The notes below the pieces were generated by a model. That model made no database searches, was not told the origin of the DNA, and saw nothing but the letters and a program-made list of their open reading frames with translations. A stretch of DNA of 40,777 nt from NCBI GenBank assembly GCA_025458675.1, contig JALORY010000005.1:1-40777 (forward strand), in the 5' to 3' direction. The DNA is from Gammaproteobacteria bacterium. GTDB lineage: Bacteria > Pseudomonadota > Gammaproteobacteria > Chromatiales > Chromatiaceae. The position numbers and the translations under genes are program-made. This document shows, piece after piece, positions 11,658 to 25,224 of this stretch (within the stretch, counting starts at the first letter, position 1; each line of letters starts with the position of its first letter).

Positions 11658-12470
11658 GTGCGTGCCGAAGCCTCCGCTCCCGTTTCCGTCCTCGCGGCGC
11701 TGCTGCGCGAGCTCGCGCCGGTGCGCGTGGCGGTGAGTGGCGGCGTGGACAGCATGACGCTCGCGCTGGTCGCCGGCCGGGAGCTCGCTGACGCCGTGGA
11801 GGTGGTGCACGCCGCCTCCCCCGCGGTGCCCGCCGAGGCGACCGCCCGGGTGCGCGCCGTCGGGGCCGCCGAGGGCTGGCGGGTGCACGTGATCGACGCG
11901 GGCGAGTTCGCTGACGAGGCCTATCTCGCCAACCCTTACGACCGCTGCTTTCACTGCAAGAGCCACCTCTATCGCGCGATGGCCCGGCTCGGCGGCGGCC
12001 TCCTGCTGTCGGGCGCCAACACCGACGACCTCGACGACTATCGCCCCGGCCTCGCGGCCGCGCGGGACCACGGCGTGCGCCACCCGTTCGTCGAGTGCGG
12101 TATCGACAAGTCCGGGGTGCGGGCCCTCTGCGCGAGCCTCGGCTACCGCGACATCGCGGCGCTGCCCGCGGCGCCCTGCCTGTCCAGCCGGATCGAGACG
12201 GGGCTGCGCATCGAGCCCGGGACGCTGGCGTTCGTGCACGCGGTGGAGTCGGCGCTGCGCGAAGGTCCGGGACCCCTGGTCGTCCGTTGCCGCGTCCGGC
12301 GCGACGGCGTCGTGGTCGAACTGGACGAGGCCGCCCTGCAGTCACTGCGCGCCGGCGACGAAGAGGGGTGGCGGCAGCGGATCGCCGCGCTTGCCGCAGC
12401 CAACGGGCTCGCGCCGGAGATCCGCTTCGAGCCCTACCGCCGGGGGAGTGCGTTTGTCGCAGCCAGCTGA
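11658..12470 (+). CDS. larE: Nickel-pincer cofactor sulfur transferase LarE
   Basis: 270 residues. LarE is an ATP-dependent PP-loop enzyme that adenylates the carboxyl groups of the LarB product and replaces them with thiocarboxylates. The PP-loop SGGVDS is at 27-32. Other family motifs are CFHCK (97-101), LLSGANTDDL (117-125) and APCLSSR (172-178). Cys97, Cys100 and Cys174 are all present. In some LarE proteins the single cysteine of the last motif is consumed as the sulfur donor, while three-cysteine types bind a 4Fe-4S cluster; this protein has three, so the catalytic type is more likely, but the exact positions need alignment. The start is GTG 11658. The 3' end overlaps larB by 17 nt. It was not called a tRNA thiolation or ExsB enzyme because of the larB neighbour. 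Confidence 0.92.
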   Translation: MRAEASAPVSVLAALLRELAPVRVAVSGGVDSMTLALVAGRELADAVEVVHAASPAVPAEATARVRAVGAAEGWRVHVIDAGEFADEAYLANPYDRCFHCKSHLYRAMARLGGGLLLSGANTDDLDDYRPGLAAARDHGVRHPFVECGIDKSGVRALCASLGYRDIAALPAAPCLSSRIETGLRIEPGTLAFVHAVESALREGPGPLVVRCRVRRDGVVVELDEAALQSLRAGDEEGWRQRIAALAAANGLAPEIRFEPYRRGSAFVAAS

Positions 12471-13158
12471 ACCGGGATCGCAGGTCGTGATCGACTTCGC
12501 GCGCGGGGCGCGGATCGGCCTCGAGGAGGCCGTCTACTGCGCGCACAAGCATTCGGCGCAGATCGAGCACGTGCTCGCCGAGCACGACGCGCGGGGTCGT
12601 CCCTGTCTGCTGACGCGCCTGTCCCCCCAGCAGCACGCGGCCCTGGACGGTGCCTGGCACGCGCGGCTCGACTACGAGCCGGTCTCGCGCACCGCCTTCT
12701 ACCGCGCCGTGCCGGCGCCCGCGGGACCGCCGCAGGTCGCCATCGTCAGCGGGGGGAGCTCCGACGCCCCCGTGTGCGGCGAGGCGGCGCGCACGCTCGC
12801 GTTCCACGGCGTCGCCAGCCGGCGTTTCGAGGACGTCGGCGTGGCCGGGTTGTGGCGACTGATGGACCGGATCGAGGAGATCCGCGCCCACCCCGTCGTG
12901 ATCGCGGTCGCGGGCATGGAGGGCGCGCTGTTCAGCGTGCTCGGCGGGCTCGTCGGCAGCGTCGTCATCGCCGTGCCGAGCTCGGTCGGCTACGGCGTGG
13001 CCGCGGCCGGCGAGCTGAGCCTCAGGTCCGCGCTCGCGAGCTGCGCCCCGGGCATCGTCACGGTCAACATCGACAACGGCTACGGCGCCGCCTGCGCCGC
13101 CCTGCGGGCGCTCGCCGTGGCCCGCGCGACACTGCCAGTCGGTGCGATCCCCGGCTGA
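12454..13158 (+). CDS. larB: Nickel-pincer cofactor carboxylase LarB
   Basis: 234 residues. LarB, related to PurE (AIR carboxylase), carboxylates and hydrolyses nicotinic acid adenine dinucleotide to pyridinium-3,5-biscarboxylic acid mononucleotide, the first step of the nickel-pincer pathway. Visible: the N-terminal IDFARGARIGLEEAVYC, the PurE-like nucleotide motif VAIVSGGSSDAPVC (about 91-104), and the glycine-rich VAGMEGALFSVLGGLV and NIDNGYGA. The frame overlaps the end of larE. TTG 12454 has GGGGGAG 5 nt upstream and is my preferred start; GTG 12448 is the alternative. With larC at 7.3 kb this completes the LarB-LarE-LarC pathway. Confidence 0.9.
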   Translation: MSQPAEPGSQVVIDFARGARIGLEEAVYCAHKHSAQIEHVLAEHDARGRPCLLTRLSPQQHAALDGAWHARLDYEPVSRTAFYRAVPAPAGPPQVAIVSGGSSDAPVCGEAARTLAFHGVASRRFEDVGVAGLWRLMDRIEEIRAHPVVIAVAGMEGALFSVLGGLVGSVVIAVPSSVGYGVAAAGELSLRSALASCAPGIVTVNIDNGYGAACAALRALAVARATLPVGAIPG

Positions 13159-13186: not shown

Positions 13187-13528
13187 TCAGAGCGAGCGGC
13201 AGAGGTAGTCCGGCAGGCCCGCGATCCGGCACGCCTGCTCGCAGCCGCCGTCCGGGAAGAGCCGGCCGATCGCCTCGCCGGCCGACGTGCGCTCCCGGCC
13301 CAGCGATTCGCCGAGCGCCCGGTACATGGCGCGGGCCGGCGGCGGGATCAGGTGCCCGCAGTAGAAGTCGCGCAGGAAGCGGATGACTGCCCAGTGGCCG
13401 GCCTGCAGCTGCAGGCCCTCCTCCTCCGCAAGGCCGCGCGCCACCTCGTCGTCCCAGGCCCAGAAATCGGCCATGAACCCCATGTGATTGAAGTCGAGCT
13501 GCCGCCCTCGCACCTGCATCGGGACCAT
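13187..13528 (-). CDS. DsrC/TusE-family protein with a divergent C-terminal cysteine arm
   Basis: 113 residues, the normal size of DsrC/TusE proteins, which carry sulfur as a persulfide on a C-terminal cysteine (sulfite reductase partner DsrC, or tRNA thiolation TusE). The N-terminal LDFNHMGFMADFWAWDDEVA and the central GHWAVIRFLRDFYCGH are typical. The C-terminus is CEQACRIAGLPDYLCRSL: Cys100 and Cys110 are nine residues apart, and the last Cys is fourth from the end. In canonical DsrC the arm is CRIAGLPKPTGCV, with ten residues between and Cys penultimate. Cys57 and Cys96 are extra. So a sulfur-relay or regulatory homologue is likelier than standard DsrC. ATG 13528 follows GAGGAG by 4 nt. 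No tusBCD or dsr gene is adjacent. The 248 nt upstream hold no other feature I can support. Confidence 0.85.
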   Translation of the reverse strand: MVPMQVRGRQLDFNHMGFMADFWAWDDEVARGLAEEEGLQLQAGHWAVIRFLRDFYCGHLIPPPARAMYRALGESLGRERTSAGEAIGRLFPDGGCEQACRIAGLPDYLCRSL

Positions 13529-13776
13529 CACACTCCTCCTCTGTCGTTGTCGTCGGCCGGCGGCGCCGAACTGCGGACCGCGGCACCACGGCGCTTCGGC
13601 CGGAACCTGCGAACCGTTAGCAGTCCGGGGCCGGGGCGTGAGCCGGTTCACGGTTTCCGGGACGTCGACGAGGTCCGGGCCGAGAGCGGGACCGGCAGAC
13701 TCCCTGGCGGCGGGTGCTATCCAGCAGGGGGGCGGTCGCGGCACAATACCGCCCCTGTCTTCGGGGGATACCGGCC

Positions 13777-14443: not shown

Positions 14444-14953
14444 TCACTTCAGCTGCCCGGCGTCGAGGTCCTTCAGGAGCTGCGGCGTGACGTCGTCGTG
14501 GCGGACCACGCGTGTGCCCTTGTGGTCGCGCAGAAATTCCTCGGCCTCCGCCCGCGTCGCGAAGGGCACCAGCTCGTGGCCCATCGGCCCGAGGGTGTCT
14601 GACCCGATCACGTACCAGGCGTCCCTGGCGGCGATCCGCGTGACGCCGTAGTACTCGGTGACGCCGACGGCGGCGATGTCCTCGGCCCGGTGGCCGGGCG
14701 CCCAGCGCGGCAGGTCCAGCAGGTACTTGTACAGATCCTTGGCGCCATCGAAGTGGTGCGCGTGACCGTCCCGGTAGAGCACGGTCGCGATCCAGTCCGG
14801 GTAGCGCGCCACGAACATGCCGCAGACGGGGCAGGTGTCGCGCTCGCCGGGGCCCGGCAGGTCCAGGGCGAGGGCAGGCCCCGCCAGCGCGAGGCCCAGA
14901 AGAAGGGCGCCCGCCGCGCGGCGGGCGCCCTCGAGCGTCGGGCGCGAGAGCAC
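14444..14953 (-). CDS. NosL-type copper chaperone (Sec-exported)
   Basis: 169 residues. A signal peptide (ALLLGLALAGPALAL, about 16-30) precedes the NosL motif CPVCGMFV (41-48), whose Cys and Met residues bind Cu(I) in NosL of nitrous oxide reductase gene clusters. The C-terminal half (HHFDGAKDLYKYL, then VTEYYGVTRIAARDAWYVIGS, then MGHELVPF) follows the NosL fold. No lipobox Cys was seen, unlike many NosL lipoproteins. GTG 14953 starts 5 nt after the stop of a second NosL gene and lies behind TGAGG. It is the last gene of the cassette that reads down from 20.05 kb. Copper binding is family knowledge; the client enzyme is unknown. Confidence 0.85.
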   Translation of the reverse strand: MLSRPTLEGARRAAGALLLGLALAGPALALDLPGPGERDTCPVCGMFVARYPDWIATVLYRDGHAHHFDGAKDLYKYLLDLPRWAPGHRAEDIAAVGVTEYYGVTRIAARDAWYVIGSDTLGPMGHELVPFATRAEAEEFLRDHKGTRVVRHDDVTPQLLKDLDAGQLK

Positions 14954-14958
14954 GTGCC

Positions 14959-15585
14959 TCAGCTCTTGCCTTCCATCATCTTGGCGCGCTTCTCCGCCCG
15001 CTTCTTGCGGATCATCAGCGTGTCGTCGGCCATGCTCGCATACGCAGCCTTGAGCGCCGCGTCGAAGTTGCCGAGCTCGCCGCCGTTCTCCTTCTGCGCT
15101 GCCTCGGCCACCGCCTTGCTGCCGAAGGCCTTCTTGCTCCGTGCCGTCATCACGCCGGGCAGCTTGGAGCCGATCAGGTAGGTGGCCTCGTCGACGTTGA
15201 CCAGCGGTTTTATCTCGGCGGCCGCGCCGAAGTCCGCCGCGTAGATCGCCTTCGGCCCGCGGTCGAGGTTGATGGCCAGGCTGATCGCCGCGCAGTGCAG
15301 CGAGCAGGTGCCATCGGCGAGGTCGTCGGCGTACTGCACGAGGTGCCGGCTGTGGTGGTACTGCTTGCGGTCCATGCCGCAGTAGGGGCACTTCGGGTAC
15401 TTCGCGAGCTCGTCCTTGAGCGGCTCCGGGTCGGGCTTGGTCTTGGGCACGAACTGCATCGGCGTGCCGTCGCCCTCGCAGGCGGCGTGCGCGGTGCTGC
15501 CCTGGGTGACCGCGAAGCCGGCCAGGCTGCCGACCGCGAGCAGCTTCAGCGCGTGACGGCGGTCGAGGTGGGTGTTGTCGCTCAT
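14959..15585 (-). CDS. NosL-like protein with twin-arginine signal
   Basis: 208 residues. The N-terminus has DRRHALKLLAVGSLAG (8-23), a twin-arginine signal ending near AHA (34). The body shows the NosL-type KCPYCGMDRKQY (65-76; Cys66, Cys69, Met71), then CSLHCAA (94-100) with a second cysteine pair, and VDEATYLIGSKLPGVM. Tat export of a NosL homologue implies folding, perhaps with copper, before export. The C-terminus is Lys-rich (RKKRAEKRAKMMEGKS). CAGGAG is 9 nt before ATG 15585. The gene is separated from the SafE gene by 147 nt, with a palindrome in between, so it may have its own promoter. Confidence 0.82.
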   Translation of the reverse strand: MSDNTHLDRRHALKLLAVGSLAGFAVTQGSTAHAACEGDGTPMQFVPKTKPDPEPLKDELAKYPKCPYCGMDRKQYHHSRHLVQYADDLADGTCSLHCAAISLAINLDRGPKAIYAADFGAAAEIKPLVNVDEATYLIGSKLPGVMTARSKKAFGSKAVAEAAQKENGGELGNFDAALKAAYASMADDTLMIRKKRAEKRAKMMEGKS

Positions 15586-15732: not shown

Positions 15733-16404
15733 TCAGCCGGCGAGGCCGCGCATGACGTCGTAGAAGACGAGGCCCTCGTAAAGTGTCCAGAGGCCGAGCG
15801 CCACGACGACGGCGCCGGCGACGTGCCGCGCTCGGCCGCAGGCCCGGTTGCCGAGCGCGCCGGAGAGCAGGCTGACGCCGAGCATCGCCGGCACGGTGCC
15901 GAGGCCGAAGGCCAGCATCAGGGCAGACGCCCGCGTCGGGCTCGCGGTCGCCGCCGCCTTGATCGCGACCGAGAAGACGAGGCTGCAGGGAACCAGCCCG
16001 TTCCCGACGCCGGCGAGGGCGTAGCGCCAGAGGTCCGGGCGTCCCGGCTTCGCAGAAGCGGGGCCGGGTACGGCCGCACAGCGTGCCGGTGCCGAGGCCC
16101 CGAGCACGCCGGCCAGCCCCAGACCGAGGACGACGATCACCAGGCCGGCGACGATCATCAGAAGGCCCTGCGCCTTGCCGAAGCCACCGACCTGCACGAT
16201 CACCTGGCCGAGCGCGGCGCCCGCCACGCCGAGGGCGACGTAGGTCGACACGCGCGCGCCGTGGTAGACGGCGGCGGGCAGGCCGCGCTGCGCGAGGCCC
16301 TGGTGCAGGAACAGCCCGCCCGCGAGGCCGGTGCACATGCCGAGGCAGTGCGGCGCGCCGGCGAGGCCGGCGGTGAAGGCGAGCAGCAGACCGGGCTCGC
16401 TCAC
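15733..16404 (-). CDS. SafE/UreH-type membrane protein (TauE/SafE family)
   Basis: 223 residues with about six membrane helices. The N-terminal motif GAPHCLGMCTGLAGG (His19, Cys20, Cys24) is the His/Cys/Met signature of the SafE/DsbD-like membrane proteins often annotated as sulfite exporters and also found beside copper-oxidase assembly genes. A second GxG helix start (GVGNGLVPCSLVFSVA) lies about residue 140 and repeats the fold. In this context a metal- or thiol-redox role in the membrane is more likely than sulfite export; that is inference. The GTG start at 16404 overlaps the TGA of the TlpA gene (GTGA), so the two are coupled. Confidence 0.82.
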   Translation of the reverse strand: MSEPGLLLAFTAGLAGAPHCLGMCTGLAGGLFLHQGLAQRGLPAAVYHGARVSTYVALGVAGAALGQVIVQVGGFGKAQGLLMIVAGLVIVVLGLGLAGVLGASAPARCAAVPGPASAKPGRPDLWRYALAGVGNGLVPCSLVFSVAIKAAATASPTRASALMLAFGLGTVPAMLGVSLLSGALGNRACGRARHVAGAVVVALGLWTLYEGLVFYDVMRGLAG

Positions 16405-16925
16405 AGCAGGTCCGCGACGATGCGCTCGAAGACCTCGGGCGTGGACTCGCCGAGCACCTTCGCCCGCAGCCGGCCCTCGCGGTCGATGAAGAACGTGGTG
16501 GGCAGGCCGATCACGCCGTAGCGGCGGCTGACGCGCCCGTCCACGTCGAGCAGCGTCTCGTAGCTGACGCCGAGGCGGCGCACGAAGCGCTCCGCGGTCG
16601 CCGGGTCCTGGCGCACGTTCACCGCCAGGATGCGCAGCCCCCGGTCCCGGTACTTGCGGTACACCGGCTCGAGCTGGGTCATCTCGCTCTCGCAGAAGGG
16701 GCACCAGTCGGCCCAGAAGCGCAGCGCGACCACCTCGCCGCGTGCCTGGGCGGGGAACTCCACGGGGCGGTGCGCGAGGTCGTCGAGCGTGAACGACGGC
16801 ACTACCGCGCCGGTCTCGAGCTTCGGTATGGCGTCGCCGCAGCTGCCCAGGGCGAGCAGGAGCGCGACAAGGCACGCGCGCAGCGACGCGGTCACCACGC
16901 GACTCGCACCGGCCGGTACCCCCAC
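16401..16925 (-). CDS. TlpA/ResA-type thioredoxin lipoprotein
   Basis: 174 residues. A lipoprotein signal ends at LALGSC (Cys29). The thioredoxin fold has the active site WADWCPFCES (Cys75-Pro-Phe-Cys78), and GLPTTFFIDREG carries the cis-proline. TlpA/ResA proteins keep cysteines of heme- or copper-accepting proteins reduced outside the inner membrane. The CPFC variant differs from ResA's CEPC. In a NosL/ABC cassette it likely reduces the cysteines of copper chaperones or of the client enzyme. GTG 16925 has AGGGAGG 6 nt upstream; it follows the membrane protein gene by 13 nt and its stop overlaps the SafE gene. Confidence 0.88.
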   Translation of the reverse strand: MGVPAGASRVVTASLRACLVALLLALGSCGDAIPKLETGAVVPSFTLDDLAHRPVEFPAQARGEVVALRFWADWCPFCESEMTQLEPVYRKYRDRGLRILAVNVRQDPATAERFVRRLGVSYETLLDVDGRVSRRYGVIGLPTTFFIDREGRLRAKVLGESTPEVFERIVADLL

Positions 16926-16938
16926 GGGCTGCCTCCCT

Positions 16939-17946
16939 CTACCACCAGACGCCCACCATCGTGAGCCCGGACCGGAGGATCGTCCAGGCGGCGACCGCGT
17001 AGAAGAGCCCGAAGCCGGCGAGCGCGAGCCACGTCAGGCGCCGCGTCTCCCCCGGCACCGCGGCGGCGAGGCTGGGCACGCCGCGCCAGGGCGCCACGGC
17101 GGCCGCGCCCAGCGCCAGGGCAGCCCCGGCGAACAGCGGCAGGTAGAGCCAGTAGCCGACGTGGTCGTGGCCCGCCTTGAGCACGCAGAAGGGACAGTGG
17201 TGGTGCGGGTGCTCGTAGACGTAGAGGGCGATCAGCGAGACCACGGCCGCCAGCGCGACCAGGAAGGCGGCGAGCGCGCTGCCGCCGAAGACCCAGCCGC
17301 CGGAGCCGCGGCGCAGCAGCCACGCGCCGCTGCCCGCGACCAGCACGCCGCTCGCGCCCAGTGCGACCGCGGCGTCGCGCGGCGCGGTGCCGGCGACCTC
17401 GCCGGCCACGCCAGCCGAGTCGGGCGAGAACAGCGCCCCGCAGCACGACGTGATCACGTCCGGCTGCAGGTTGAGGAAGTAGAGCGCCTGCACGACGGCG
17501 CCGGCGGCCACCAGGGGGACGATGCCGAGCAGCAGGCCGTACTTCACCCGGATGAGCGGGTAGTCCCAGCCCTGGTTGTCGAGGCGGTTCAGCGTGAGCC
17601 ACACCGCCCCGGCGAAGAACGCAGCGATCTGGAGGAACAGGGTCGGCCAGCCCCAGCGGTTCACGTTGAGCACGCCGGTCGCGCACATCGCGCCGACGAA
17701 CTGCGTGTGCATCGCCTCGGCGTTGTACACGAACAGCAGCAGCGACAGGGCCTCGGCCCCGCAGCAGAAGGCGACGAGCGTGGCGATCAGGTAGGTGCGG
17801 CGCTCGAGGCGCAGCTGCCGCTCGCTGCCGCTCGTGATGTCCCAGTGCCGCAGCACGCGGACGGCGAAGGCGGCGGCGAGCGTCATGAGCAGGGTCACGA
17901 CCGCGGAGACTGCGAGCAGGGCGAGGACCGCGGGGTTCAGCAGCAC
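16939..17946 (-). CDS. Multi-helix membrane protein rich in Cys/His pairs, unknown
   Basis: 335 residues with about eight membrane helices. Possible metal ligands are striking: Cys61-Cys62 (AFCCGAEA), His80, Cys88 (VGAMCATG), Cys168-Cys169 (ITSCCGAL), and HPHHHCPFC (246-254) followed by His260 and His262 (KAGHDH). Several fall at helix ends facing outside, from rough topology. I recognise no named family. Its place between an ABC ATPase and a TlpA lipoprotein suggests a metal-binding or redox membrane partner in copper delivery; this is inference. GTG 17946 has GGAGG at 5-6 nt and lies 1 nt after the ATPase stop, so it is co-translated. Confidence 0.8.
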   Translation of the reverse strand: MLLNPAVLALLAVSAVVTLLMTLAAAFAVRVLRHWDITSGSERQLRLERRTYLIATLVAFCCGAEALSLLLFVYNAEAMHTQFVGAMCATGVLNVNRWGWPTLFLQIAAFFAGAVWLTLNRLDNQGWDYPLIRVKYGLLLGIVPLVAAGAVVQALYFLNLQPDVITSCCGALFSPDSAGVAGEVAGTAPRDAAVALGASGVLVAGSGAWLLRRGSGGWVFGGSALAAFLVALAAVVSLIALYVYEHPHHHCPFCVLKAGHDHVGYWLYLPLFAGAALALGAAAVAPWRGVPSLAAAVPGETRRLTWLALAGFGLFYAVAAWTILRSGLTMVGVWW

Positions 17947-18622: not shown

Positions 18623-19755
18623 CAGCGCATCACCGTGTCCGGGTCGGTGATCGCCGCGCGCCAGATCGGCACGATGGTGGCGACGGTGTAGGGAAAGACG
18701 GTGAAGAAGAACAGCGTCGCGAGCTGCAGCCCGTCCACCGTGGGCACGAGCGCGAAGCGGGGGTAGAGGACCGCCCAGCCCTTGAGCACGGGCTCGAAGA
18801 GCGCCGCGTCGGCGAGGAAAACGTGCGCGTAGGCGGCGAGATAGCCGAGCAGGAAGGCGGTGAGCGAGACGATCGCGCCCTCCCAGAACTTCATGCGGAT
18901 GACGTCGCTCGTCTCCCAGCCGATCGCCTTGAGTATGCCGATCTCCCGGCGTTCCTCCGCCGACAGCCCCGAGGCCTTGTCCCAGGCGAACACGACGAAG
19001 GCGAGGATGGCGCCCAGCAGCAGCACCGCCACCACGCCTTGGCGCCAGTTGAAGATCGCGTCGTAGGTCCGCAGCACCTCATCGCGCAGGATCGGCCGGG
19101 TGTCGGGCAGCAGCAGCGTGAGCTTCTCGGCGACCTTGCGCACCTCCTGCGCGTTGCGCACGCGCAGCGCGACGTCGGTGTACTGCCCCGCGGGGATGCC
19201 GAAGAAGGCGCGGAAGAAGGGCTCCGCGACCAGCACGAGGTCGCTGCTCACCAGCTCCGAGCGGGCGTCGAGCAGTCCTGCGACGCGCAGCGTGTGCGCC
19301 TTGCCGTCGCTGCCGCGCAGGGTGAGGTAGTCGCCGGCCGAGAGGCCGCGCGTGCGGGCGATGCCGGCGCCGATGATCGCGTCGCCCGGTGCGATCTCGC
19401 GGTCGGGCGGCACCATGAGCGTGTAGTTCGCCTTCACGGCCGGGTCGTAGAAGTAGCCCCACAGGCGTCCGGCCTTGGTCTGCACCCCGCGCACCTGGCC
19501 GATCCGGGCGATGTGCTCCTCGCCGATCAGGTCGTGCCGCCCGGCGACCATGCGCTGCAGCACGATCTCGGGAGCGCCGGCGAGCACGTGCGCCGCCTCG
19601 TGGCGCAGCGCGTGCGTGTAGAGCATGACCGAGGCGAGCGCGAACACGATGAGCGCGTAGACCAGCAGCAGCCCGAGATTCTTCGCGCGGCGTCGCAGCA
19701 GCGACGCGAGCGTGAAGTCAATCAGGTACTTCTGTCGCTGCAGCCAGATCGGCAT
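18622..19755 (-). CDS. FtsX/MacB-type ABC transporter permease
   Basis: 377 residues. One N-terminal helix (about 26-48), a large periplasmic domain (50-235, MacB-PCD-like beta/alpha), and three C-terminal helices (about 243-262, 292-315, 345-365) make the FtsX topology. The coupling motif EERREIGILKAIGWETSDV (about 266-284) is typical. FtsX-type permeases work by mechanotransmission on periplasmic partners or lipoproteins rather than as pores. Here partners could be the small anchored protein upstream, the NosL chaperones or the TlpA lipoprotein. Its ATG start lies 38 nt inside the upstream gene, in another frame. Confidence 0.9.
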   Translation of the reverse strand: MPIWLQRQKYLIDFTLASLLRRRAKNLGLLLVYALIVFALASVMLYTHALRHEAAHVLAGAPEIVLQRMVAGRHDLIGEEHIARIGQVRGVQTKAGRLWGYFYDPAVKANYTLMVPPDREIAPGDAIIGAGIARTRGLSAGDYLTLRGSDGKAHTLRVAGLLDARSELVSSDLVLVAEPFFRAFFGIPAGQYTDVALRVRNAQEVRKVAEKLTLLLPDTRPILRDEVLRTYDAIFNWRQGVVAVLLLGAILAFVVFAWDKASGLSAEERREIGILKAIGWETSDVIRMKFWEGAIVSLTAFLLGYLAAYAHVFLADAALFEPVLKGWAVLYPRFALVPTVDGLQLATLFFFTVFPYTVATIVPIWRAAITDPDTVMR

Positions 19756-20050
19756 GGCGGGTCGGGAACAGATGCGCGGGCGGCGCGAGCAGGCTGCCGC
19801 TCGGAAAGTGCTCGAAGGCGAGGGGGTGATCCTGGAAGGCGGTGTGCAGGTCTGCCTGGGAGAGGTGTCGCGTGTAGCGCGCCTCGGTGAACAGGGCGAG
19901 GTCGGTGAGACCGAGCTCCTGCACCAATGCTGCGCTCGTGGCCAACCGCGGCGAGGCCTCGTGCGAGCGCAGCGTCGCGTCCACGAAGGTCAGCGCCGTG
20001 GCGAGCGCCAGCACGGCCATCAGCCAGAGGAAACGGTCGGTGCGGGACAT
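19718..20050 (-). CDS. Small membrane-anchored periplasmic protein, first gene of the copper-like cassette
   Basis: 110 residues. A hydrophobic anchor (FLWLMAVLALATALTFV, about 7-23) is followed by a short periplasmic domain with several His (LHTAF, HPLAFEHFPSG, HLFPTRHADL). It has no recognised family and no cysteine. The coding 3' end overlaps the permease start by 38 nt, so the two proteins are probably made together and it may be a permease partner. ATG 20050 was chosen; the ribosome site before it is weak, and an in-frame upstream start cannot be excluded. Confidence 0.65.
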   Translation of the reverse strand: MSRTDRFLWLMAVLALATALTFVDATLRSHEASPRLATSAALVQELGLTDLALFTEARYTRHLSQADLHTAFQDHPLAFEHFPSGSLLAPPAHLFPTRHADLAAATEVPD

Positions 20051-20192
20051 CGAGAGGCGGTCGCCGGTCTCGGAAGCGGAATTGGGCCATTCTCCCGGCG
20101 CACTCCCGGTGCCACATTGATGCACCGCAAGGCCCCATGGGCGGTGCGGGCCGGCGAGCATTAAGATGACCCCACGGATTCTGTGCCGACCC

Positions 20193-21844: not shown

Positions 21845-22642
21845 ATGGACGCCTCGCCTGCCATTCGCACCCTCCCGGCCCGGGCGACGCTCGTCGCGCA
21901 CCGGCTCGACCTGCGCCGGCTGCAGCAGGTCCAGCCGCTCGCGACGACCCCGCTGACGGTCGAAGTCGCAGGGGGGGGTGTGGCGATGCTCTTCCGCTTC
22001 GGGGCCGTCGTGTTCTTCGGCGTCGCACCGATGGAGGAGGCGTCCTTCCTCGAGAAGCTCGCGCCCTTCGCGGTGGAGCCGCTCACCCAGCCCGAGGTCG
22101 AGGCGCTGGATATCGTGGTCGACCCGGGCCGCCCCGAGGGCCTCGACCAGTCCGGCCTCTACCTGCCCGACGCCGACCTGCCGCGCCTGCAGGTGGTCGC
22201 GGACATCCTCGCCAAGAGCGTGCTGCTCGCGGAGCAGGAGGCGCGCGTCGCGAGCGCCTTCGACCGCGTCGAGCCGCTCGCCGAGCAGCTCCAGCGCGGC
22301 GGCCGCGGCACGGGCAGCAACGTCGAGCTGACCCGTCACATCGGCGAGATCCTGCTGATCCAGCACCGAACGGTCGGCCGCGCCGAGGTGGGCGACAAGC
22401 CCGACATCCTCTGGGAGCGCACCGACCTCGAGCGGCTCTTCCAGCGCCTCGACGCCGAGTACGAGCTCGGCGAACGCCGCCAGGCGCTCGAGCAGAAGCT
22501 CGAGCTGATCGGCGACACGGCGCAGACCCTGCTCGACCTGCTGCACAACCGCCGCAGCCTGCGCGTCGAGTGGTACATCGTCATCCTCATCGTGGTCGAG
22601 ATCGTTCTCACGCTGTATGAGCTCTTCGTCCGCGCGCACTAG
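21845..22642 (+). CDS. RMD1/DUF155-family membrane protein
   Basis: 265 residues from ATG 21845 (GTG one codon earlier, 21842, also possible). The pattern is that of the DUF155/RMD1 family: an N-terminal beta-rich domain with VAMLFRFGAVVFFGVAP (about 47-63), a central helical part, and a C-terminal hydrophobic anchor (VEWYIVILIVVEIVLTLYEL, about 240-260). In yeast and human mitochondria RMD1 relatives (Rmd1, Rmnd1) matter for translation, but the bacterial role is unknown. It overlaps the next gene by 26 nt in another frame, so it probably works with the GNAT/peptidase and ATP-grasp proteins. Confidence 0.88.
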   Translation: MDASPAIRTLPARATLVAHRLDLRRLQQVQPLATTPLTVEVAGGGVAMLFRFGAVVFFGVAPMEEASFLEKLAPFAVEPLTQPEVEALDIVVDPGRPEGLDQSGLYLPDADLPRLQVVADILAKSVLLAEQEARVASAFDRVEPLAEQLQRGGRGTGSNVELTRHIGEILLIQHRTVGRAEVGDKPDILWERTDLERLFQRLDAEYELGERRQALEQKLELIGDTAQTLLDLLHNRRSLRVEWYIVILIVVEIVLTLYELFVRAH

Positions 22643-23774
22643 ACCCGCCACGGCGGTGCCGACCGTCCGGCCCGCCGGTCTCGACGACCTCGACGGCCTC
22701 GTCGAGATCGAGAATCGCTGCTTCGACACCGACCGGCTGTCGCGCCGCAACTTCCGCCACCTCCTCACGCGTGGCCGCGCGGCCACGCTGGTCGCAGAGC
22801 GGGCCGGCGCCGTGCTCGGCTACGTGCTGGTGCTGTTCAGCCACGGCACCTCGATGGCCCGCGTCTACTCGATCGCCGTGGACCCCGCCGCCGCCCGGCG
22901 CGGCGTCGGCGCGCTGCTCATGGGCGCGGCGGAGCAGGCCGCGCGCGATCAGGACTGCAGCGAGCTGCGCCTCGAGGTGCGCAAGGACAACGCCGCCGCC
23001 ATCCGGCTGTACGAGTCCCTGGGCTACCGCCGCTTCGGCGTGCTGGCCGACTACTACGAGGACCACGCGGACGCCGTCCGCTACCACCGCTCGCTCGCCC
23101 CGCAGCTGGGCCTCGGCATGGTGCGCGTGCCCTACTACGCGCAGACGCTCGACTTCACCTGCGGGCCCGCGGCGCTGATGATGGCGATGGGAGCGCACGA
23201 GCCGTCGATGCCGCTCGACCGCAAGCTCGAGCTGCGGCTCTGGCGCGAGGCGACGACGATCTTCATGACCTCGGGGCACGGCGGCTGCGGGCCCTACGGC
23301 CTCGCGCTCGCCGCCCACCACCGCGGCTTCGCCGTCGAGGTCTACGTCAACGCGCGCCGCACGCTGCTGTCGGCCACGGTGCGCAGCCGCGAGAAGCGTG
23401 AAGTCATGCGCCTCGTGCAGGAGGACATGATCGAGGAGCTCGACCGGCTCGGCGTGCCGATCCACCACCGCACCGTGCAGCCCGACGAGCTCGAGCGGCT
23501 GTTCGTGGGGGGCGGCATCCCGCTGGTGCTGATCAGCTCCTACCGGATCTACAAGGAGAAGTTCCCGCACTGGGTGGTGATCACCGGCTTCGAGCAGCGC
23601 TACATCTACATGCACGACCCGTTCGTGGACGAGGAGGAGGGCGAGTCGATCGCCGACTGCATCAACATGCCGGTGCTGCGGCGCGAGTTCGCCGCGATGG
23701 CGCGTTTCGGTCGTGCCAACCTGCGCGCGCTGGTGGTGATCTACCCGAAGTGGACGGAGAAGGCCGGTGGCTGA
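22617..23774 (+). CDS. GNAT acetyltransferase fused to a C39-like peptidase domain
   Basis: 385 residues. The N-terminal GNAT domain (about 16-155) has the acetyl-CoA motif RRGVGALLM (94-102) and the RimI-like NAAAIRLYESLGYR. The C-terminal domain (from about 168) starts VPYYAQTLDFTCGPAALMMAM with Cys182, the expected nucleophile of papain-like C39 peptidases, and later FPHWVVITGFEQ and MHDPF supply the His and Asp. So acetyl transfer and peptide cleavage sit in one chain. It overlaps the RMD1 gene upstream and the ATP-grasp gene downstream (8 nt). From memory, this fusion next to a RimK-like ligase has been noted as a recurrent neighbourhood of ATP-grasp amidoligases, without a known product. 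Confidence 0.88.
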   Translation: MSSSSARTRPATAVPTVRPAGLDDLDGLVEIENRCFDTDRLSRRNFRHLLTRGRAATLVAERAGAVLGYVLVLFSHGTSMARVYSIAVDPAAARRGVGALLMGAAEQAARDQDCSELRLEVRKDNAAAIRLYESLGYRRFGVLADYYEDHADAVRYHRSLAPQLGLGMVRVPYYAQTLDFTCGPAALMMAMGAHEPSMPLDRKLELRLWREATTIFMTSGHGGCGPYGLALAAHHRGFAVEVYVNARRTLLSATVRSREKREVMRLVQEDMIEELDRLGVPIHHRTVQPDELERLFVGGGIPLVLISSYRIYKEKFPHWVVITGFEQRYIYMHDPFVDEEEGESIADCINMPVLRREFAAMARFGRANLRALVVIYPKWTEKAGG

Positions 23775-25224
23775 CGTCGTTGTGCTCGTCGAGAAGGCCG
23801 CGGACTGGCGGCCGGAGTTTCCCGCGGTGCGGCTCGCGACCGCGCGGGAGTACCTGACCGAGCCGAGCTTCGCGGACCGCGGCGGCCTCATGGTGATCAA
23901 CCTGTGCCGCAGCCAGCAGTACCAGAGCACCGGCTACTACTGCTCGCTGCTCGGCGAGGCGCGCGGCCACCGCGTGATCCCCTCGGTGCGAACCGGGCAG
24001 GACCTGCGCCGCCCCGCCGCGTTCGCGCCGCGCTACGGGCTCGACGCCCCGGTCCGCCGCTTCCTCCGGGGCCTCGAGAGCGACCGCTACCGGCTCGAGG
24101 TGTACTTCGGCGACACGACCGAGCCCGCGTTCGAGGATCTCGCGCGCGAGGTGTTCGACACCTTCCGCGCGCCGCTCCTGCGCGTCGAGTTCCGGCGCGA
24201 GGGCAACTGGCGCATCCACGCCGTGCACGTCCAGTCGCTGCACCGGCTGCCCGCATCGGGGCGCGAGGCCTTCGGCGCGGCGCTCTCCAAATACCTCGCC
24301 CGGCGCTGGCGCGAGCCGCCGAGCCCCCGGCGCTACCGCTACGACCTCGCGATCCTGCACGACCCCGAGGAGACGATGCCGCCGTCGAACCGGCGCGCGA
24401 TCAAACGCTTCATCGAAGCGGGGCGGAAGGCGGGCATCGACTCCGAGCTCATCACCCGCCGCGACTTCGCGAAGCTCGCCGAGTTCGACGGCCTGTTCAT
24501 CCGGGTCACGACGCAGGTGAACCACTACAGCTACCGGTTCGCGCGGCGGGCGGAGCGCGAGGGCATGGTCGTGATCGACGACCCGCTCTCGATCCTGCGG
24601 TGCAGCAACAAGGTCTACCTGGCCGAGCTGCTGCGCCGCAACCGCATCCCGACCCCGCCCTCGGTGGTCCTCGCCCCGGGCGGGCTGGACGCGGCCGAAC
24701 AGGTCTGCGGCTATCCGGTGGTGCTCAAGGTGCCGGACGGCTCCTTCTCGCGCGGGGTGTTCAAGGCGGAGAGCCCGCAGCAGCTCGAGGCGAGGGCGCG
24801 CGAGATGTTCGAGCACTCGGAGCTCATCCTGGCGCAGGCCTTCACCTACACGGACTTCGACTGGCGCGTCGGCGTCCTCAACCGCGAGCCGCTCTACGTC
24901 TCGCAGTACTTCATGGCGAAGCGGCACTGGCAGATCGTCAAGCACGGTTCCACCGGCTCGCGGCTGGCGGGCGGCTCGACGACGATGCGGGTGGAGGACG
25001 CGCCGCCCGAGGTGGTGAAGACCGCGCTCAAGGCCGCGAACCTGATCGGCGACGGGTTCTACGGCGTCGACCTCAAGCAGTCGCCCGACGGCACCGTGGT
25101 GGTCATCGAGGTGAACGACAACCCGAGCATCGACGCGGGCGTGGAGGACGAGGTGCTGGGCGACCGGCTCTACGAGCGGGTGATGCAGGAGTTCCTGCGC
25201 CGCCTCAGTGATATTTCTCCGTGA
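23767..25224 (+). CDS. RimK-like ATP-grasp ligase with N-terminal RLAN-type domain
   Basis: 485 residues from GTG 23767, overlapping the previous stop. The N-terminal part (about 1-200) matches the RimK-like ligase N-terminal domain (NLCRSQQYQSTGYYCSLLGEARGH). The ATP-grasp part (about 255-480) shows NKVYLAELLRRNRIPTP, YPVVLKVPDGSFSRGVFKAE (phosphate-binding loop) and VIEVNDNPSIDAG (metal binding). RimK-type ligases join a carboxylate to an amine, for example adding glutamate to a protein C-terminus. With the GNAT/C39 partner it may modify or make a peptide; no precursor peptide was found nearby. Its 3' end overlaps the convergent fpr gene by 20 nt. Confidence 0.88.
   Translation: MADVVVLVEKAADWRPEFPAVRLATAREYLTEPSFADRGGLMVINLCRSQQYQSTGYYCSLLGEARGHRVIPSVRTGQDLRRPAAFAPRYGLDAPVRRFLRGLESDRYRLEVYFGDTTEPAFEDLAREVFDTFRAPLLRVEFRREGNWRIHAVHVQSLHRLPASGREAFGAALSKYLARRWREPPSPRRYRYDLAILHDPEETMPPSNRRAIKRFIEAGRKAGIDSELITRRDFAKLAEFDGLFIRVTTQVNHYSYRFARRAEREGMVVIDDPLSILRCSNKVYLAELLRRNRIPTPPSVVLAPGGLDAAEQVCGYPVVLKVPDGSFSRGVFKAESPQQLEARAREMFEHSELILAQAFTYTDFDWRVGVLNREPLYVSQYFMAKRHWQIVKHGSTGSRLAGGSTTMRVEDAPPEVVKTALKAANLIGDGFYGVDLKQSPDGTVVVIEVNDNPSIDAGVEDEVLGDRLYERVMQEFLRRLSDISP

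Follow-up and report, generated by a model that had tools for sequence, protein, structure and literature searches.

What does a membrane protein of eight predicted helices, with cysteine and histidine motifs in its loops and no recognisable family, do among genes of an ABC transporter and a thioredoxin-like protein? The question is raised by an open reading frame in the window, that is, the whole stretch of 40,777 nucleotides analysed here. In the initial annotation its product was described as an unrecognised protein of eight helices, and the position of its gene, between those of an ABC ATPase and a TlpA protein, was taken to suggest that it carries out metal or thiol chemistry within the membrane. 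The routes by which copper reaches enzymes outside the cytoplasm and is inserted there have been worked out in just a few cases.

The eight-TM protein and its conserved residues

The ORF runs from a GTG start codon at 17946 to a TAG stop codon at 16941-16939 on the minus strand. The AlphaFold2 model of its product, for which 41 homologues were used as input, has eight long helices (residues 5-34, 42-82, 99-123, 132-158, 189-213, 217-244, 263-289 and 296-325), with pLDDT 90.6 and pTM 0.89 and low confidence at the loop 171-177, bearing out the number of helices first read from the sequence. The ORF is a genuine gene, coding for an inner-membrane protein with eight predicted transmembrane helices.

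No Pfam or NCBIfam family scored above its cut-off with the eight-TM protein, PDB sequences gave no profile match even at E 10 and PDB folds gave no Foldseek match at E 0.001, so that the protein is indeed unrecognised, as annotated. Scattered weak matches to Pfam B12D, DUF3262 and CD20 in 1-4 of the 41 members were taken as chance. Selenocysteine in the member from genome G143, raised by a 'TGA inside' flag, was dismissed since the tblastn alignment of locus L099 contained no internal stop. No homologue was found in a plasmid collection, and the open-access literature searched contained neither a description of a NosL-TlpA-FtsX/ABC system nor a type VII ABC system linked with copper. The eight-TM protein represents a family of its own, and we found no earlier description of the copper-type ABC module to which it belongs.

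The residues singled out in the initial annotation (C61-C62, C88, C168-C169, HPHHHCPFC at 246-254 and KAGHDH, residues 257-262) had all been placed correctly; only some of them are conserved. In 88 sequences including the window protein, C88, C168, C169, H249, H250 and C251 are present in all and C254 in 87, whereas C61 (3/88), C62 (6/88), H260 (49/88) and H262 (3/88) are poorly kept. The C61-C62 pair and the histidines of KAGHDH were therefore accidental parts of the original observation, and the core of C88, C168-C169 and H249-H250-C251 stands. When a divergent member from genome G392, which shares 27.5 % identity with the protein of the window, is added as the 89th sequence, the potential ligands conserved throughout are M87, C88, C168, C169, H249, H250 and C251; in the HPHHHCPFC loop P247, P252 and F253 are also invariant. 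Two divergent lineages, L087 and G392, have Asp instead of Cys at position 254. The existence of relatives at many loci, together with core motifs invariant in 89 sequences, makes the observation more than chance.

Since each motif loop comes after an even-numbered helix (2, 4 or 6), all three lie on one face of the membrane. This face has 3.4 Lys+Arg per protein, compared with 9.5 on the opposite face, which by the positive-inside rule places the motif loops on the periplasmic side.

The gene module and its linkage

The eight-TM gene is the fourth of eight genes in a run on the same strand, transcribed in the order upX, FtsX-type permease, LolD/FtsE-like ATPase, eight-TM protein, TlpA, DsbD_2, NosL1 and NosL2, and several neighbouring genes overlap or almost touch (Table 1). 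The genes adjoining that of the eight-TM protein are those originally reported. The NosL pair further downstream, which was absent from the initial annotation, is the main clue to copper.

Table 1 Features of the module in the window, in order of transcription
Feature	Position	Strand	Remarks
upX, small membrane-anchored periplasmic protein, ~110 aa	19718..20050	minus	ATG at 20050
FtsX/MacB/LolE-type (type VII) ABC permease, 377 aa	18622..19755	minus	family and fold matches
ABC ATPase, LolD/FtsE/MacB type, 224 aa	17948..18622	minus	directly upstream of eight-TM gene
Eight-TM membrane protein gene	16939..17946	minus	335 aa
Codons M87-C88 (GAMC loop after TM2)	17683..17688	minus	invariant
Codons C168-C169 (ITSCCG loop after TM4)	17440..17445	minus	invariant
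Codons HPHHHCPFC (246-254, loop after TM6)	17185..17211	minus	homologue alignment
TlpA/ResA-like thioredoxin lipoprotein	16401..16925	minus	invariant lipobox Cys29, WADWCxxC
DsbD_2 (CcdA/TauE-like) membrane protein	15733..16404	minus	invariant HCxGMC
NosL1, NosL family, Tat signal (RR)	14959..15585	minus	CPYCGMD, C94xxHC98
NosL2, NosL family	14444..14953	minus	CPVCGM, H64, M124-G-H126

The permease, with four TM helices, a periplasmic domain and an invariant H311, matched PF02687 (E 2.5e-8), its homologue at locus L119 matched MacB_PCD (E 2.6e-7), and in Foldseek its model matched LolE (E 2e-16) and MacB (E 1e-13). The module thus resembles the type VII ABC systems (LolCDE, MacB, FtsEX, YbbAP) in its permease fold, in the plan of TM1, periplasmic domain and TM2-4, and in its LolD/FtsE-like ATPase, but it differs from them in always having an additional eight-TM protein with metal ligands and a small His-rich anchor, and from Lol and FtsE in scoring below the equivalog cut-offs. 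A Lol-like release system dedicated to the TlpA lipoprotein, with the eight-TM protein as a scaffold, would agree with the resemblance of permease and ATPase to LolE and LolD in fold and score and with the invariant lipobox Cys of TlpA; it is nevertheless very improbable, given scores of 163.8 bits against a cut-off of 307.75 for LolD and 36 against 362.45 bits for LolCE, NosL proteins which look Tat- or Sec-exported and not like lipoproteins, and an invariant Cys/His set which it would leave unexplained.

The small anchored protein, UpX, belongs to no family. It has the conserved pattern TEARYTRH...H...QDHP....HFPSG, with H98, H105, H111 and H117 in the numbering of the longer ORF 19718-20158. 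Residues suited to soft metals or thiol chemistry are thus conserved in envelope proteins other than the eight-TM protein: these four histidines, the WCxxC of TlpA and the HCxGMC of the DsbD_2 protein, which has in addition a PC in a later segment, the Cys being present in 92 %. The two NosL-family proteins matched PF05573 (E 2e-31 and 7e-11), and CGM is conserved in both. At the N-terminus of NosL1 (15500-15585, minus strand) a twin-arginine signal, R9-R10, is kept by at least 93 % of homologues. Such a signal is unusual for a copper chaperone and suggests that NosL1 is exported in the folded state, perhaps loaded with metal in the cytoplasm.

Relatives of the eight-TM protein were found in 180 candidate stretches of the genome collection, from which 80 loci were drawn. 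The permease and ATPase genes were directly upstream of the eight-TM gene in all 74 loci with enough flanking sequence. Among 42 loci flanked by long sequence on either side, upX was present in 42, TlpA in 38, NosL1 in 36, NosL2 in 34 and DsbD_2 in 30; six loci (L068-L071, L077 and L079) had no NosL inside the flanks covered. The order is not uniform: TlpA-NosL1-NosL2 precedes upX in G022, in G201 and G084 these three genes are on a different contig, and in the most divergent genome, G392, only NosL2, upX, permease, ATPase and eight-TM genes occur together, the NosL having a His/Met-rich tail with the C-terminal end HGMPGMEHGHHDH. That the genes were rearranged yet retained in these four genomes indicates that the linkage is not the consequence of one frozen gene order. 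At the G392 locus a Rieske-like protein is encoded between NosL and upX (L119:11105-11926, minus strand; TIGR01416 E 5e-12, below cut-off), its cluster-binding motifs appearing degenerate by eye.

Strong NosL2-type matches were present in 18 of 19 genomes with the eight-TM gene and in none of 12 chosen genomes lacking it (31 genomes; Fisher p = 9e-8, a descriptive value which ignores phylogeny). In the nineteenth carrier the contig breaks off just behind NosL1. The homologues come from gamma- and betaproteobacteria, among them sulfur oxidisers and their symbionts, Chromatiaceae, Rhodocyclaceae and Gallionellaceae; a few records bear the names of other proteobacteria, and one Deltaproteobacteria genome bin contributes two loci. 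Culturable carriers include Thauera aminoaromatica S2 (L076), Sulfurisoma sediminicola BSN1 (L068) and Sedimenticola hydrogenitrophicus SN1189 (L023). Carriers are sparse (13 of 370 genomes of the class and 7 of 398 of the phylum). The genome of the window has a second copy of the module (G000 contig C67, L109:52-5631, minus strand), in which the eight-TM protein is 76 % identical and NosL1 aligns as two segments (residues 1-52 and 89-207), with the CPYCGM region skipped. This copy may be a paralogue whose NosL1 is damaged, or it may result from misassembly or from a contig of a contaminant.

The proposal of metal or thiol chemistry can now be divided. The metal part is upheld by the invariant periplasmic ligand set and the two NosLs, and thiol exchange by the CPFC pair is disfavoured because of the replacement of C254 in two divergent lineages. 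A thiol-disulfide relay, in which the eight-TM protein would be a new DsbB/CcdA-like membrane thiol oxidoreductase exchanging electrons with the TlpA lipoprotein, would account for the C168-C169 and CPFC pairs and for TlpA and a CcdA-like DsbD_2 as neighbours. Like DsbB and CcdA, the eight-TM protein is polytopic with Cys pairs facing the periplasm, but it matches neither in sequence or fold, it does not require CPFC, and its His ligands, a pair adjoining C251, are invariant. Furthermore, no TlpA or DsbD_2 is found near the G392 module, and a CcdA-like electron donor is already encoded in the operon. The relay is thus rather improbable, and metal chemistry is favoured over thiol exchange.

Copper, client enzymes and control

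Both NosLs of the module carry the CXM motif, through which NosL probably binds Cu(I) (PMC6530538). TlpA is known to reduce copper-site cysteines in the case of CoxB and ScoI (PMC7558416). The module resembles this TlpA/ScoI/CoxB route to the CuA site of aa3 oxidase in having a membrane-attached TlpA reductase beside copper chaperones, but contains NosL in place of Sco/PCuAC, and the route has no counterpart of the ABC transporter or the eight-TM protein. Several beta-type loci encode an HMA-like protein and a P-type ATPase between the TlpA and NosL genes. The ATPase has CPC, an N-terminal MTCASC and YN...MxxSS, a pattern which we take to be that of a CopA-like Cu(I)-ATPase.

These features bear on whether the metal is copper. 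The module might instead serve the maturation of something other than a copper centre, such as heme or a c-type cytochrome, a Cu-S cluster needing sulfide, or a protein with another thiophilic metal (Hg, As). TlpA and CcdA-like proteins are indeed known from the maturation of cytochrome c, HrtBA, a heme exporter that is itself a type VII ABC system, was among the fold matches of the permease, and structural homology of NosL with MerB is named in the title of a reference in PMC7558416. Since the two CXM NosLs and the Cu(I)-type ATPase of some loci point to copper, such a role is given a low probability.

The arrangement also recalls NosDFYL, in which an ABC ATPase and permease accompany a periplasmic NosL Cu(I) chaperone. 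In contrast to NosDFYL, with its NosY-type ABC-2 permease, the module has an FtsX/MacB_PCD permease of LolE/MacB fold, no operon protein matched the NosD family, a second NosL, the eight-TM Cys/His protein, TlpA and DsbD_2 are added, and the module shows neither linkage to nosZ nor a matching distribution. Of the 18 complete carriers in the chosen set 9 have NosZ; class-wide it was present in 4 of 12 carriers versus 59 of 358 other genomes (p 0.13), and no recurrent cluster among the module's neighbours resembled nosZ. Several of the nosZ-bearing carriers have an additional NosL match on the nosZ contig. With NosZ in only half of the complete carriers, the module is no ordinary nos cluster, and nitrous oxide reductase was rejected as the sole client, as were cbb3 oxidase, COX2 and multicopper oxidase, each of which is missing from some complete carriers. 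No enzyme gene recurs beside the operon among the neighbour clusters; the recurrent neighbours, HMA, P-type ATPase and small-protein genes, are those of beta-type loci. None of these cuproenzymes is common to all complete carriers, and the client is not solely nitrous oxide reductase; there may be several.

FNR-like boxes (TTGAYNNNNRTCAA) were found 75-160 bp ahead of the matched upX start in five loci, which account for 5 of just 17 boxes of this kind in 1.30 Mb (binomial p 5e-7, with approximately three lineages behind the five loci and the interval chosen after the sites had been seen), suggesting that in some hosts the module is under anaerobic control. An FNR-like box is absent from the window, and no CueR-like box was found in front of upX.

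Both the regulatory sites and the chaperones bear on efflux or detoxification of Cu(I) or another soft metal, in which the ABC transporter and the eight-TM protein would expel or sequester the metal with NosL as a periplasmic buffer. The ligand set and ABC class would be the same, MacB-type transporters being exporters, and a CopA-type ATPase is encoded in some beta-type loci. The operon proteins, however, include no MacA-like adaptor and no outer-membrane channel, the boxes in front of upX are FNR-like and not CueR-like, and NosL is a delivery chaperone where it has been studied (PMC6530538); efflux is considered unlikely.

A putative copper-delivery machine

The eight-TM protein is probably (about 0.58) the membrane Cu(I)-binding component of an ATP-driven periplasmic machine for copper delivery, i.e. 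cuproprotein maturation, with copper as the putative metal and cuproenzymes as putative clients. Counting against this reading are the lack of a cuproenzyme shared by all complete carriers, the loci without NosL in their flanks and the fact that no type VII ABC system is known to carry copper. A more specific form of the reading, which is offered tentatively, is a new kind of ATP-driven machine for the assembly of metal centres, in which a type VII ABC mechanotransmission complex bears a novel fold of eight TM helices whose multinuclear Cu(I) or Cu-S site loads the two NosLs, one of them Tat-exported, and in which the NosL pair serves a candidate periplasmic cuproenzyme.

In such a delivery machine, the CcdA-like DsbD_2 would pass electrons to TlpA, which would keep the Cys ligands of the eight-TM protein reduced, and the latter would bind Cu(I) through its Met/Cys/His set, the source being perhaps the P1B-1 ATPase where present, or the periplasm. 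Type VII ABC systems use ATP to move periplasmic domains. An ATP-driven movement of the periplasmic domain of the permease, by mechanotransmission as in LolCDE, MacB and FtsEX, could then drive the hand-over of Cu(I) to NosL1 and NosL2, which would metallate the client enzymes. The machine would work like NosDFYL, with an FtsX-type permease replacing the NosY-type and the eight-TM protein as the metal-binding platform.

The module couples NosL chaperones to a different class of ABC motor and to a membrane protein without known family, in denitrifying, sulfur-oxidising and symbiotic Proteobacteria, and half of the complete carriers examined are without nitrous oxide reductase. Should the reading prove right, the copper-chaperone function of NosL would extend beyond what its name implies, and the assembly of metal centres would be added to the roles of type VII ABC machines.

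Other genes of the window include, near the end of the copper-type operon, one for a DsrC/TusE-family sulfur relay protein (13187-13744, minus strand; TIGR03342), the listed start of which is probably too far upstream, and, on the plus strand at 11658-13158, adjacent genes for LarE (TIGR00268) and LarB (NF033503) of nickel-pincer cofactor synthesis. At 22617-25224 (plus strand) a RimI-like acetyltransferase, with a C-terminal extension that by eye resembles a C39-type peptidase, is followed by a RimK-family ATP-grasp ligase, and the two are possibly a peptide-modifying pair.
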